DNA of 23,253 nucleotides, from positions 1 to 23,253 of IMG/VR virus record IMGVR_UViG_3300007345_000294, one strand, 5' to 3'. Both the position numbers and the translations under genes were made by a program. The notes beneath the pieces were generated by a model. The model was given only the letters and a program-made list of their open reading frames with translations, was not told the origin of the DNA and did no database searches. Positions 1 to 19,863 of this stretch are shown here, in pieces; the stretch's first letter is position 1, and each line of letters starts with the position of its first letter. Source of the stretch: a virus.

Positions 1-74
1 TCCAATATATAATCACCATTTGTATCTTTTAGGTAAACAACGGGCTTTATGTTGATCTTTTCTATCGGATTCAT
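1..74 (-). CDS. Partial gene downstream of gp15 (first 24 codons)
   Basis: An open frame starts with ATG at 74-72, overlaps the gp15 stop by ATGA, and runs off the left edge. The visible residues begin MNPIEKINIKPVVYLKDTNG. Both the overlap and the continuous open frame support a real, translationally coupled gene. In T4-like phages the genes after gp15 are usually the terminase subunits (gp16, gp17) or a tail completion protein. Twenty-four residues are too few for me to decide which, so I assign no function. Confidence 0.7.
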   Translation of the reverse strand, partial: MNPIEKINIKPVVYLKDTNGDYIL

Positions 75-757
75 TCATAGTCCTCTGGAAATTTATCAAA
101 AATATTAACATCAATATTTTTAATGAGTCCTGTTTGTCTTACGGGTCCGTACATTCTTGTTTTAGCTGTAAAATCAAAGTCCCACATTAAAAATCGAGTA
201 TTTTCTTTTACTAATTCCCCTTCAAACAATTCTGTATATTTTACTGCATTTAAAACAATTGGAACATCTATTCTTTCGTATTTGTCTTCTAATATTTTTG
301 GTTTTATTGTTATTGTAAATTCAGGTGTGAAGAACGGCAATATCTGTTCCATTACTTGAAGACCATCATCTATGTTTCTAGAATATAGAGAAAGTTTAAA
401 ATTTATATTATAAGGAACATCGGCATAATGGTAGTTGAAAACTATATCATCTGTAATATTTAAATTTTCTGCATATCTTTTTTGTAATGTATTTTTCTTT
501 CTTTCTTTATCATAAAAAATTTCAGATATTTGAAACGACATTGCTGGTAAAACTATTTGAGCAGCATATGCAGAAGGGTCGTTTAAATTTATGCTCAGTC
601 TTTGCATAAATTTTTCTTTAGCAGCATAGGTTAAAGGTACTTTTATTTTTTGTACTTCTTGGTTATTGTTTTTTCTCTGAACAAAAATATTATTAAATAT
701 AGTTCCAAAAGCAATAACTGTTTTTTTAGTTGTTTCGTGATAAAAAGTTGTAAACAT
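71..757 (-). CDS. gp15: Tail sheath stabiliser / tail terminator, gp15-like
   Basis: The 228-residue product resembles T4 gp15 (272 aa), the hexameric ring that caps the finished tail and sheath and joins it to the neck. The N-terminus MFTTFYHETTKK parallels T4 MFGYFYNSSFRR. A VPLTYAAKEKFM segment near residue 42 matches T4 VPITYASKEHFM, and a VMEQILPFFTPEF segment near residue 136 matches T4 IVEQILPYFQPHF. It is shorter than T4 gp15 because the proline-rich C-terminal tail is missing. The ATG overlaps the gp14 stop by one base (TAATG) and follows AAGGAAA. Its place after gp13 and gp14 is the classical T4 order. Confidence 0.94.
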   Translation of the reverse strand: MFTTFYHETTKKTVIAFGTIFNNIFVQRKNNNQEVQKIKVPLTYAAKEKFMQRLSINLNDPSAYAAQIVLPAMSFQISEIFYDKERKKNTLQKRYAENLNITDDIVFNYHYADVPYNINFKLSLYSRNIDDGLQVMEQILPFFTPEFTITIKPKILEDKYERIDVPIVLNAVKYTELFEGELVKENTRFLMWDFDFTAKTRMYGPVRQTGLIKNIDVNIFDKFPEDYE

Positions 758-1449
758 TAATAGTTTCCTTCTGAAAAGGGATCTATTTCAGAAAAATCGA
801 TAATGTCATCGGCTTTTTGTTGTAATTCTTCATTATCATCCGGTCCTTTAGATTTAGTTATAAAATCAGGAACGCCGTCATTATCAACATCTACAGCTTT
901 AGATAGATTCTCTTGTATAACATCAATATCATCAATACCTGTATTGAATTGCTCATATGAGTATTTGTAAAGTTCACAATCTACTTTATAAGTGTATAAT
1001 TTACCTTGTTGGTAAAATATATGCTTGTTATCTACATATTTTATTTCAAAAAGTCCTTTAGTGAGAGGAAAATAAATTAAATCTCCCATCATCGGAGATT
1101 CTATTTGAACAGGTCTGGAACTCATTGTTGGTAGTTTTGCTGCTTCTTGTTCAAATCTTTTTCTAGAAACAATCAAAGAAAATTCATCTTTGATCTCAAG
1201 ACCAAATCTTGAAATTACTTCTCTTTCACCGCCCATTTGGGCAAAATTTTCAAGATACATTTCAATATTAAATACATTTGTATAACTCTGAAGAATATCT
1301 TCTCCAAATACATTATCTAATTTATTAAATTTTTTAGGTATATAATATACATCTATACCATATTGTTTAATAGATTCCAACACAATTTCTTCTATAAGAT
1401 CCTGTGTTGGTGCATAATTATAATTATTGAAATATGGATTTATAGCCAA
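757..1449 (-). CDS. gp14: Neck protein gp14
   Basis: The product has 230 residues and matches T4 gp14 (256 aa), a neck component that with gp13 joins the portal to the tail. Visible family features are NPYFNNYN near the start, a segment of the type LIEEIVLESIKQYGIDVYYI, FGEDIL, and GDLIYFPLTKGLFEIKYV (T4: GDLIYFPMDNSLFEINWV). The C-terminus ends in PFSEGNY, like T4 PFDNDFMD. The start is TTG at 1449-1447: family homology begins right there, a strong AGGGGG site lies five bases upstream, and the first internal ATG would delete about 60 conserved residues. The gp13 stop lies at 1453-1451, one base before the TTG. Confidence 0.95.
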   Translation of the reverse strand: MAINPYFNNYNYAPTQDLIEEIVLESIKQYGIDVYYIPKKFNKLDNVFGEDILQSYTNVFNIEMYLENFAQMGGEREVISRFGLEIKDEFSLIVSRKRFEQEAAKLPTMSSRPVQIESPMMGDLIYFPLTKGLFEIKYVDNKHIFYQQGKLYTYKVDCELYKYSYEQFNTGIDDIDVIQENLSKAVDVDNDGVPDFITKSKGPDDNEELQQKADDIIDFSEIDPFSEGNY

Positions 1450-1450
1450 A

Positions 1451-2278
1451 TCAACCCCCTATGTAAAAAATTGGAGGTTCTTCATATTTGAGTTGAATTT
1501 CATCTTCAAGTTTACGAATTTCATCTTGTGCTTCATTTAATATTTTTAATCCATTCAAAGAAACTCCTCCGGGAAGAGATACACCATCAAATTTTGATAA
1601 ATTTCTTCCCCATTGTTCTTTTATTTTTGCGGTGACATATTGTTTTAAAATACGATCATTGTATATTTCACCATATAATTCAGGGTCCAATATTCTATAG
1701 GCTTCAAACATAAAATATTGACCAGGAACAGCGTGTGTTTTCCAATCTGCATCTATATAAATTCTATTGGTAACTCTACTAAATCTTATAGATTTCTCTG
1801 GAGTTAATAAGTCTTGAAGCATCTTCATGTGGCTTCGTGTGTAATTATAAATTTGTAAAGAATTACTATATGTATTTGTTCTTAGTCCATAGAGATCGTT
1901 TAGAGCAATTTGATACCTAGCATCAAACATTCCTGTTCCACCTAGGGTATCAAACAATTGAAAAAGCCGCACCACACTTATAATAGTCTTACCATCAGGA
2001 TCAAGTGGTGGAGCGGCTTTTATTTCGGGTGTTACTGTATCATCGGCTTCTGTTGCTTCTTTTAAATCAATATATTCTCGCTCAACATCTTTAGCCGATA
2101 TTTGATATGGTAAATATGTTTTCTCAACACCATCAAAATGATACTCTGCAAAAAACTGCAACGAATCATCTATTCTGTCTTCTATCTGTGCATCATCAAC
2201 ATTAATTTCGATTACAGGATAACCTAATCTACGGAGACAGTATTGTTTTAGTTCTTCTCTCGTAAGTGGTGTTGCCAT
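1451..2278 (-). CDS. gp13: Neck protein gp13
   Basis: The product is 275 residues when started at the ATG at 2278-2276 (T4 gp13 is 309 aa). Gp13 and gp14 make the neck that seals the DNA-filled head to the tail. The N-terminus, MATPLTREELKQYCLRRLG followed by PVIEINVDDAQIEDRIDDSL, is the pattern I know from gp13 of cyanophages and other marine T4-like phages. An AAAGGA site lies a few bases before this ATG. An in-frame ATG 42 bases upstream is less likely because it would run back through the inverted repeat and late promoter. The gene is probably expressed both by read-through and from its own late promoter at 2299-2306. Confidence 0.92.
   Translation of the reverse strand: MATPLTREELKQYCLRRLGYPVIEINVDDAQIEDRIDDSLQFFAEYHFDGVEKTYLPYQISAKDVEREYIDLKEATEADDTVTPEIKAAPPLDPDGKTIISVVRLFQLFDTLGGTGMFDARYQIALNDLYGLRTNTYSNSLQIYNYTRSHMKMLQDLLTPEKSIRFSRVTNRIYIDADWKTHAVPGQYFMFEAYRILDPELYGEIYNDRILKQYVTAKIKEQWGRNLSKFDGVSLPGGVSLNGLKILNEAQDEIRKLEDEIQLKYEEPPIFYIGG
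1455..1460 (-). promoter_or_regulatory. Ribosome binding site for the TTG start of gp14
   Basis: The minus strand reads AGGGGG followed by TTGAT and then the TTG start codon, a five-base spacing. It lies within the last codons and stop of gp13. No in-frame ATG lies near, so this site decides the start. Confidence 0.7.
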
Positions 2279-2288
2279 ATTTTTTTCC

Positions 2289-2322
2289 TTTTGATACTTA
2301 TTTATAATATTTAGTATCAAAA
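2289..2322. repeat. 10-bp perfect inverted repeat flanking the gp13 late promoter
   Basis: The arms are TTTTGATACT (2289-2298) and AGTATCAAAA (2313-2322), with a 14-base loop that holds the late promoter. In an RNA reading through from upstream the hairpin would abut and partly cover the AAAAGGA ribosome site of gp13. An RNA starting at the late promoter would lack the 5' arm. No T-run follows the stem on either strand, so it is not a typical intrinsic terminator. Confidence 0.75.
2299..2306 (-). promoter_or_regulatory. T4-type late promoter (TATAAATA) before gp13
   Basis: The minus strand carries an exact TATAAATA, the T4 late promoter core read by the sigma-like gp55 with gp33. Placed as in T4, transcription would start near 2293, about 15 bases before the gp13 ATG, and the leader would keep the AAAGGA site. 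In DNA this AT-rich the octamer occurs by chance several times in the window. Its place in a true intergenic gap and in the loop of an inverted repeat makes this copy the most credible. Confidence 0.65.
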
Positions 2323-2335
2323 AGATTTTAATATT

Positions 2336-2704
2336 TTAATCATAATCCATTAAATAAGAAATTAAAGTTAAATCAGATGGTGAAATAGTAAAATTACGAT
2401 CAAAATCTTGTTTTTTTAGTAATGGAGAGTATATACTAACTTCTGTATCAAACAGATATTTGTTTAAATCTTCTGTAAATTGCTTTTTCTTGTTATCAGG
2501 AATATTATATTCTCCTTTTGGAGTTTTTTTGCCATATTTTTCTAACAATTCATTTCTTGTTTTTTCGGCTACTTGTAGATGTTCGTTTATTTCTTTAATT
2601 AAATCTACTAACTTTTTGCTGGTATCTATACTCATTTTTAATTCTAAAATAGAATTTATTGTCGAAACACTACTATAAATATCAATCATTTTCACTTTTT
2701 TCAT
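2336..2704 (-). CDS. Small phage protein of unknown function, 122 aa
   Basis: A 122-residue, mostly helical, charged protein with a central segment of the type RNELLEKYGKKTPKGEYNIP and an acidic, leucine-rich C-terminus (SPSDLTLISYLMDYD). I recognise this general pattern from short phage tail-region proteins, but I cannot name a family or function. It overlaps the end of the 81-aa gene by 23 bases. The ATG at 2704 is preferred over the ATG at 2689 because AAAGGAG lies ten bases before it, whereas the second has no good site. It is the last gene before the promoter and inverted repeat of gp13. Confidence 0.75.
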   Translation of the reverse strand: MKKVKMIDIYSSVSTINSILELKMSIDTSKKLVDLIKEINEHLQVAEKTRNELLEKYGKKTPKGEYNIPDNKKKQFTEDLNKYLFDTEVSIYSPLLKKQDFDRNFTISPSDLTLISYLMDYD

Positions 2705-17863: not shown

Positions 17864-19087
17864 CTATCTAGATGGCGTATCTATATTTATGTTTGTAAAA
17901 CCTTCGGTTATTATTTTTTCATAATTTATAAAAGAAGAAAAAACAGAATTTAAAGTCAATACTTGTGGGACTGGTGGTTTTTCTTGTCTCCATTGTGTTA
18001 AAAGTAATCCTGTTTTTACATGTAATTGGTCGCCTTTGACATCAAAATATGTGTTTTCTCCTGAAACAAAATTCAAGTGTCTGTCTGTAGAAAACCATAT
18101 TTCTCCTCCTGTTCTGAATCTTGGGTTTTCATTAGCAAAAAAATACATTTTTGGATCTACGTTAGAAGATTTTGATTTTGTTTTAGGATTCCAACCAGAA
18201 GAAAAAGACATATTTGCACAAGAAGATATTGTTAAATTTCCTAAATCAGGATCTGTGGTTTCTATTACTGTTTGTTCTTCTGTTCTTGAAATATTATTTA
18301 GAGAACTGGTTGTTATATTTTTAGACATTCGTTTTGATTCTTGTGTGCCAACCTTTTCAAAATGTCCATTATCATTAGTCATTTCCAAATAATCTAACTC
18401 ACCTTCTATGGTTGTTGCTCTTGATCTCTGTATTTTACAAATATCATCTTGTTCTATTATTGTTTCTCTTCTTCCTGTTACATGTAATCTATAATCCCCG
18501 TTAACATATTGCTTGTAATTACCATCTTCTTGTCTTAAATTTACATCGCCTTCTTTTACTAAGATATTTGAATTCCCTTCTTCAAGAGTTACGTTTAAGT
18601 CCCCCTTTTCAACATAGATGTTTATATTTGCATTTTTACCCACATGAATATCAAAATTTAAAGATTCCTCTTCTGTATTTTCGTTTTCTCCTGAATTTAC
18701 TAATATTTTCATTCCTTTGTCTATAGTGACTTCAGAATACCCAGAAACATGAACTCTACTATCACGAAAAATAGATTGATAAGAATCTCTGACTATTTTA
18801 TCTACTCTATCTCCATTTGGATGAAATTCTACAAAAGAACCAGTTCGGTGGTTAATTGATATTCTTTCACTTTCTTTGTTATCGTCTATTTCTACAAAAT
18901 GACCACTTTCAGAATGATAGACATGGTTAAAAGGATATATAGTTCTTTTATGAAAGATATCATCTTGACTTTCACCACTACCCCAACTTCCTTCACAACC
19001 ACAAGGAATGTCTTCCTCTTCTATTGGCTCTCCTTTTCTTTTTGAGTATTGAGTTGGTGGTTCATTCCATTTTAAATCTTCGCTCAT
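17864..19087 (-). CDS. gp5: Membrane-piercing spike, gp5 C-terminal beta-helix as a separate gene, 407 aa
   Basis: This corresponds to gp5C of T4, the trimeric needle below the hub. Residues 51-70 read YPFNHVYHSESGHFVEIDDN (T4 YPYVHTMETESGHIQEFDDT), followed by ERISINHRTGSFVEFHPNGD (T4 ERYRLVHPTGTYEEVSPSGR). From about 100 to 260 there are degenerate eight-residue V.G/G.-type repeats (HVSGYSEVTID, VEKGDLNVTLEEGNSNILVK), as expected for a triangular beta-helix. Residues 1-15 carry the linker motif WNEPPTQYS, and 16-50 are an acidic insertion with CGC and a glycine-rich stretch. The C-terminal 110 residues do not look like a simple needle tip. The ATG overlaps the OB gene by one base (TAATG), in a different frame. 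Confidence 0.92.
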   Translation of the reverse strand: MSEDLKWNEPPTQYSKRKGEPIEEEDIPCGCEGSWGSGESQDDIFHKRTIYPFNHVYHSESGHFVEIDDNKESERISINHRTGSFVEFHPNGDRVDKIVRDSYQSIFRDSRVHVSGYSEVTIDKGMKILVNSGENENTEEESLNFDIHVGKNANINIYVEKGDLNVTLEEGNSNILVKEGDVNLRQEDGNYKQYVNGDYRLHVTGRRETIIEQDDICKIQRSRATTIEGELDYLEMTNDNGHFEKVGTQESKRMSKNITTSSLNNISRTEEQTVIETTDPDLGNLTISSCANMSFSSGWNPKTKSKSSNVDPKMYFFANENPRFRTGGEIWFSTDRHLNFVSGENTYFDVKGDQLHVKTGLLLTQWRQEKPPVPQVLTLNSVFSSFINYEKIITEGFTNINIDTPSR

Positions 19088-19863
19088 TATTCTGTTCCAT
19101 ATATGTTTTTATTGTCTGAATTTATTCTGTTCTCTTCTTTTGCTGCTTTATAATTTGACATTGTAGATTTAATATCACTAGAAAATCTAAAATCTTCACT
19201 GTATTGTATAAATTCTGCTTTATTTGTATTACTGAATTTAACATTAGGGACAACTTCGTATTTTTCTGTAGGGTATATTGCTAAACGTATCTGTTTTTCT
19301 AAAATACCTCCGTCTTGTAAAGTTTTTCTTTTTGTTTCTACTAAAGTTTCCTCTATTCCTTTTATATTTGAATTTATAAAACTAGGACTCATTTCTATTA
19401 TATGATCTTCTCTTGGATATTTTTCTGGATCTTTATTTTCAATTAAAATATCTTCTCCAAGATTATATGTAATATTTTCTACTCTTACTGGATATTTTTC
19501 TAAATCTTCCCTTAAATCCTTGAATCCGTTTTGTACAGATTCACCTGTCAATCCAAATAATTCTTGGATATTATCATCTTCTTCGAAATGTGGCCTAGGA
19601 AAAACACCAATAACTATTGGTTGTTGGCTATGTTCATCATCAAAATAACCAAGAACTATACTGTTAACAGTCATTCCATTTGGTGATATTCCTACTCCAG
19701 AATTTAAACCTGAACTACAAGGAACAATAACAGATGCCCAAGGAAGACAATCATTTGGTATTTTTTCAGGATCGGGAGTGTGTTTTCCTAAAATTCTAAC
19801 CCTAACTCTTCCTGCTTGAAGTGGGTCCATTATATCTACAACAATACCTTTCCAAAAAATCAT
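19087..19863 (-). CDS. gp5: Baseplate hub gp5, N-terminal OB-fold domain as a separate gene, 258 aa
   Basis: The first roughly 95 residues are the gp5/VgrG OB fold: FWKGIVVDIMDPLQAGRVRV (T4 WFVGVVEDRMDPLKLGRVRV), then LPWASVIVPCSSGLNSGVG (T4 LPWMSVIQPITSAAMSGIG), and VLGYFDDEHSQQPIVIGVF. This domain sits on the gp27 trimer. In T4 gp5 a lysozyme domain and then the spike follow in one chain. Here the remaining 160 residues are polar linker without lysozyme signatures, and the chain ends before the spike, which is the next gene. An AGGAG site lies six bases before the ATG, inside the end of gp27. In transcription order it follows gp27 directly, its structural partner. Confidence 0.93.
   Translation of the reverse strand: MIFWKGIVVDIMDPLQAGRVRVRILGKHTPDPEKIPNDCLPWASVIVPCSSGLNSGVGISPNGMTVNSIVLGYFDDEHSQQPIVIGVFPRPHFEEDDNIQELFGLTGESVQNGFKDLREDLEKYPVRVENITYNLGEDILIENKDPEKYPREDHIIEMSPSFINSNIKGIEETLVETKRKTLQDGGILEKQIRLAIYPTEKYEVVPNVKFSNTNKAEFIQYSEDFRFSSDIKSTMSNYKAAKEENRINSDNKNIYGTE

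Follow-up and report, generated by a model that had tools for sequence, protein, structure and literature searches.

A hairpin with an embedded late-promoter box as a probable translation switch upstream of the neck gene gp13 in T4-like viruses of aquatic bacteria

Background

Several genes of T4 and its relatives, namely T4 e, soc, 49, I-TevI, 25, 26, 39 and segB, and mobE of Aeh1, have ribosome-binding sites that are hidden by structure on longer transcripts, and e and I-TevI additionally have a promoter inside the structure from which an unmasked RNA arises (PMC3014915, PMC2988022). In the leader hairpin of the lysozyme gene e, two late promoters are located where the 5' strand of the structure is encoded; the Shine-Dalgarno sequence (SD) is sequestered on read-through RNA and the late RNA is unmasked (PMC3014915). 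In I-TevI, I-TevII and segB of T4 and mobE of Aeh1, the promoter is likewise situated in or beside a hairpin, with the ribosome-binding site hidden on longer transcripts (PMC2988022). The T4 genes 49, 25 and 26 provide instances of late genes with comparable masking structures (PMC3014915, PMC2988022).

Here we describe a related arrangement upstream of gp13 in a 23,253-nt virus record (IMG/VR IMGVR_UViG_3300007345_000294), analysed over its full length and hereafter termed the window. It belongs to a T4-like phage, the nearest named phages being the Pelagibacter phages Mosig and HTVC008M and cyanophages. The arrangement shares with T4 e the predicted sequestration of the SD on read-through RNA and its release on late RNA, but the gene and the phage lineage differ; furthermore, e is masked on early RNA, whereas gp13 in the window has late structural genes upstream. 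Similarly, I-TevI, I-TevII, segB and mobE are selfish genes in early or middle units, whereas gp13 is a virion gene heading a cassette. T4 gp13 itself is unlike its counterpart in the window, as it has no late box nearby and opening of its SD requires just 3.1 kcal/mol. Thus, the mechanism is known from T4 (e, I-TevI, 49), and the gene, the lineages, the evolutionary evidence and the extent of the phenomenon are new as far as we could find; a literature search, conducted without most subscription journals, recovered no paper on an arrangement of this type at gp13 or in marine phages.

Genomic setting of the neck cassette

The minus strand of the window encodes the tail-tube cap, baseplate proteins, a gp5-like hub, gp25-like and gp6-like proteins and further baseplate components, followed by a 2000-aa protein, two small genes and finally gp13, gp14 and gp15 (Table 1). 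By annotation, every gene upstream of gp13 in the window codes for a virion protein of the late class, and a co-directional upstream unit able to read through into gp13 is present. Given that gp14 abuts gp13 and gp15 overlaps gp14, masking of gp13 would probably lower the expression of all three. The SD of gp14 lies within a hairpin inside the end of gp13 (opening 7.9 kcal/mol), and translation of gp14 is accordingly probably coupled to that of gp13. The tight gp13-gp14-gp15 spacing is general among relatives, but the hairpins before gp14 and gp15 are found in the window and in one close relative (L004) only, and a conserved coupling cascade of such hairpins was accordingly rejected. Elsewhere in the window, the gp5-like hub and lysozyme region (17864-19863, minus strand) is split over two open reading frames (19087-19863 and 17864-19087), and the SD of the first falls in a 9-bp stem located inside the gene before it.

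Table 1. Features of the gp13 upstream region and the neck cassette in the window
Feature	Position	Strand	Basis or remark
gp15 (tail sheath stabilizer); start overlaps gp14 stop by 1 nt	71..757	-	annotation, spacing
gp14 (head closure); begins 1 nt past gp13 stop	757..1449	-	annotation, spacing
gp13 neck protein (head-tail adaptor Ad2), 275 aa; gene predicted to be masked	1451..2278	-	phrog_211, E 1e-35
gp13 ATG	2278-2276	-	direct read
gp13 Shine-Dalgarno AAAAGGA, 7 nt 5' of ATG	2286..2292	-	direct read
Stem 3' arm AGUAUCAAAAGGA, with whole Shine-Dalgarno	2286..2298	-	direct read, folding
Predicted late transcription start; RNA 5'-AAAAGGAAAAAAAUAUGG	2291..2293	-	T4 late-promoter spacing
Putative late-promoter box TATAAATA, fills 3' half of loop	2299..2306	-	sequence match
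Loop, 14 nt	2299..2312	-	folding
Second, weaker promoter candidate ACTAAATA	2308..2315	-	alignment with relatives; predicted RNA unmasked
Stem 5' arm UCUUUUUGAUACU	2313..2325	-	direct read, folding; would be missing from RNA begun at embedded promoter
Co-directional upstream gene, 122 aa, phrog_1401, function unknown	2336..2704	-	stop codon 10 nt 5' of hairpin

The hairpin in the window

On the minus strand, the sequence 3' of the stop codon of the 122-aa gene reads ATCTTTTTGATACTAAATATTATAAATAAGTATCAAAAGGAAAAAAATATGG. The direct read bears out the initial annotation in that two perfect 10-bp arms (2313-2322 and 2289-2298) flank an exact TATAAATA in the loop. That annotation had further placed the GGA of the SD just outside the stem and had expected partial masking; this proved to be wrong, since the RNA stem extends to 13 bp (2325-2313 with 2298-2286) by addition of a U-G, a C-G and a U-A pair to the ten perfect pairs, and the predicted fold thereby encloses the entire AAAAGGA, pointing to full masking. 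The isolated hairpin has a folding energy of -12.9 kcal/mol (z -6.6), with none of 200 shuffled sequences folding equally well, and in the read-through RNA the folding model assigns the gp13 SD a pairing probability of 0.99. The proposed difference in folding between read-through and late RNA was also recovered: opening the SD requires 7.2 kcal/mol in the read-through RNA versus 0.1 in the predicted late RNA at 37 C, and 11.1 versus at most 0.1 kcal/mol at 15 C, these being model values calculated without proteins or ribosomes. When the SD and TATAAATA were held fixed and the rest was shuffled, the observed opening energy was reached in none of 200 trials. A search of Rfam with the hairpin region returned no family at the gathering score.

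The embedded promoter and late transcription

The late box is placed, in the window and family-wide, such that the predicted transcription start falls 3' of the pairing partner of the SD. In the closest relatives (L004-L007, gp13 83-97% identical), the stem is kept and the box is degenerate, reading TATAAAAG or CTAAATA, the latter common to L004 and L007. The segment of the window that aligns with the promoter of the relatives is the TAAAT in ACTAAATA. The window RNA is predicted to be unmasked from either candidate start, TATAAATA or ACTAAATA. The choice between these boxes is the weakest point as regards the window's own promoter, and the start site given here is the one expected from spacing. 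Among 13 longer contigs of relatives, gp55 is present in 10 and gp33 in five; the window is too short to hold them. In one relative (G014, 109 kb) a 1959-aa gene upstream of gp13 has its own unmasked late box, making late read-through toward gp13 plausible.

Survey of gp13 upstream regions

Five scans of viral contigs yielded 344 gp13 loci for which 60 nt or more of upstream sequence was available, corresponding to 180 distinct upstream regions, 159 of which have a recognisable SD. Masking was measured as the free energy required to unpair the SD, with the read-through RNA spanning -60 to +25 and the late RNA modelled from 5-7 nt after the box; an SD with an opening energy of at least 6 kcal/mol was scored as masked. 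This test recovered T4 e (14.8 kcal/mol in read-through RNA falling to 0.6 in late RNA), I-TevI (11.1 to 0.6), I-TevII (11.4 to 0.3), 49, segB and 26 as positive controls. It missed soc, for which the SD criterion gives 0; the soc structure blocks the AUG region. By the same test, genes 51, 53 and 4 join the late genes of T4 with masking structures. In these three genes (53, 51 and 4; AF158101, loci L092) late boxes lie inside the SD-masking hairpins, with opening energies of 9.1, 9.8 and 6.1 kcal/mol respectively, and the divergent genes 26 and 51 have one two-sided hairpin common to both.

The late-promoter motif NATAAATA occurs in 86 of the 159 gp13 upstream regions, versus 19 of the 383 genes taken from the same loci as controls. 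The read-through RNA is masked in 56 of these 86 regions and the predicted late RNA in none; for the 56, the late-RNA opening energy has a median of 1.1 and a maximum of 4.3 kcal/mol. Masking is seen in 22 of the 383 control genes overall and in two of the 19 with a box, both from T4 (genes 51 and 53). Two geometries can be recognized. In the first, typified by the window and L014, L019 and L359, the box lies in the loop; in the second, it lies in or at the 5' arm and the predicted start cuts the arm (L155, with a 21-bp stem, and L215-L236). In both, the mask is gone in the predicted late RNA. In the remaining 30 of the 86 boxed gp13 regions, a strong hairpin is lacking. All masked genes have a co-directional gene upstream, with a gap of at least 25 nt in 66 of 67 cases. 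The identity of this upstream gene varies, including the 122-aa family, a PAAR-like protein, a GIY-YIG-like protein (the latter two assigned by eye) and others, so the hairpin goes with gp13.

Specificity for gp13 and phyletic distribution

The arrangement is strongly biased toward gp13 within individual genomes. Two long contigs, G013 (118 kb) and G014, have eight and nine genes respectively with a box before the SD. In each contig gp13 is the single masked gene among them (14.6 and 15.0 kcal/mol), the other boxed genes having opening energies of 0.2-3.1 kcal/mol. When thirteen further contigs were examined, the genes standing out as strong exceptions, gp13 aside, were a tail-fibre-like gene and the RegA homologue of one contig. 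A genome-wide design, in which every late promoter is hidden in a hairpin, is ruled out by these observations, gp13 being nearly alone.

Some of the other genes merit description in their own right. The tail-fibre-like gene (L097:8938-10374, minus strand), from a relative of the window, has TATAAATA in an SD-hiding hairpin and constitutes a second instance of the design. The RegA homologue (L096:5848-6249, minus strand) is preceded by a very stable hairpin (-25 kcal/mol) overlapping a CATAAATA box before the start. In the gene for an HNH homing endonuclease (L095:3299-3748, minus strand, contig G002), a UCUCCUAAA/UUUAGGAGA hairpin holds the SD, as in mobE and I-TevI, but no exact late box lies inside it.

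No clear gp13 case was found among the isolates T4, Mosig, HTVC008M, Melnitz-3, phiM12, DLP6, P-SSM2, P-RSM4, S-CAM1, S-CAM9, DSL-LC02, DSL-LC03, X1, K441 and phiMAM1, or in two single-cell genomes. The gp13 gene of Mosig has a weak hairpin of 5-6 bp, and that of HTVC008M has a divergent upstream neighbour and a late box with the hairpin absent. In HTVC008M (L089, start at locus position 1474), CATAAATA ends approximately 10 nt before the ATG with no clear SD, and, judging from this spacing, the late mRNA of gp13 may have little or no leader. The lack of a clear hairpin in the examined isolate and single-cell phages, taken together with the boxed gp13 genes devoid of one, indicates that the structure is not essential for T4-like phages. 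The group with the gp13 hairpin is a little-known branch of the T4-like viruses that infect aquatic bacteria.

Evolution of the paired arms

Covariation was assessed in 22 lineages, using one representative per cluster at 80% protein identity. The 5' and 3' parts of the same lineage pair at a mean of -14.6 kcal/mol, versus -7.4 for parts exchanged between lineages, and none of 10,000 permutations reaches the observed value; the pairing of exchanged arms stems partly from the shared SD, and the surplus represents covariation. A column-wise count of pairs within one near subclade shows one C-G to U-A exchange among four distinct rows, a set devoid of statistical power. Both arms have been rewritten sufficiently to show that the pairing itself is selected, and these comparisons indicate that the hairpin before gp13 is kept by evolution while almost every letter is rewritten.

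In the gp13 tree, the clade that includes the window (SH-aLRT 98) has 23 representatives, each masked or intermediate and none unmasked, and over the whole tree the masking trait has undergone at least 13 changes. The compensatory conservation of the arms in relatives that the initial annotation had proposed as a check is thus seen in the swapped-arm comparison. Relatives with the promoter and no paired arms, which it had regarded as a refutation of the idea, are absent from the window's clade but occur outside it.

Alternative explanations

The hairpin could instead be a transcription terminator of the upstream operon, with the promoter restarting transcription for gp13. A subclade (L014-L032) in which the stem is followed by seven T, and T4 gp13, with a compact GC-rich hairpin directly before its SD, are in line with such a role. 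However, the sequence after the stem in the window is A-rich, unlike the U-run following a G+C-rich stem that defines a terminator, and no more than two T in a row occur between SD and ATG in 24 of the 56 masked upstream regions. Moreover, AU-rich stems and long loops make poor terminators, and in every case the 3' arm falls on the SD, a placement needless for termination. We therefore regard this explanation as unlikely.

Inverted repeats flanking promoters are typical of operators, and the repeat could accordingly work as DNA, as a regulator-binding site at the late promoter, with SD masking as a side effect. This is very improbable given that the arm sequences differ among lineages with the pairing kept, such that no recognition sequence is conserved, that one arm always spans the SD, that other late promoters in the same genomes lack an inverted repeat, and that the outermost U-G of the window stem, which lengthens the stem in RNA, would be a mismatch in a DNA inverted repeat. 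Least probable is a functionless stem accidentally formed around a frequent octamer in AT-rich sequence: exact TATAAATA is indeed not enriched over the whole window (11 found versus 10.2 expected), but the shuffles with SD and box fixed, and the recurrence and covariation in 22 lineages, argue against chance and refute it for the family, though for the window alone the hairpin may be an unused relic.

A promoter-dependent switch and its implications

Given the above observations, we consider it likely that the hairpin acts as a promoter-dependent translation switch for gp13. On read-through RNA from the upstream baseplate genes, both arms would be present and the 13-bp hairpin would hide the gp13 SD, such that gp13, along with the abutting and probably coupled gp14 and gp15, would be poorly made. 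RNA polymerase directed to TATAAATA by the phage late sigma factor would start approximately 6 nt downstream, past the 5' arm, producing a late RNA unable to form the hairpin, from which gp13 would be translated. The timing and amount of the neck cassette might thereby be freed from the read-through that comes from the late operon upstream. In this model we infer the promoter activity, the start site, the masking in the cell, the gp14-gp15 coupling and the purpose.

The logic taken from T4 in the initial annotation holds in so far as folding, covariation and the T4 controls point to a hairpin that masks read-through RNA and an embedded promoter that gives an unmasked late RNA. Its rationale of silencing early RNA is less compelling here: the upstream genes are themselves late structural genes, and the hairpin is more likely to insulate gp13 from the baseplate operon than to repress it on early RNA. 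The uncoupling of gp13-gp14-gp15 from that operon, also suggested earlier, gains support from the computational and comparative evidence and from the specificity for gp13, and the hairpin is best read as a device that insulates the neck cassette and times its expression.

More tentatively, it is possible that this large and mostly uncultured aquatic T4-like group keeps gp13 off all read-through RNA, including that of the late baseplate operon, by means of a hairpin that evolves fast yet is always paired and has its own promoter; this would act as an insulator between two late operons, perhaps so that the neck complex does not cap portals before packaging ends. Previous examples of the T4 device came from a small number of genes in few coliphages, most of them lysis, recombination and homing genes. 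Here it would guard a virion gene in many lineages represented only in metagenomes, and it offers testable predictions of operon boundaries and start sites for phages that cannot be grown. It also raises the question of why a neck gene, almost alone among late genes, must escape read-through translation.
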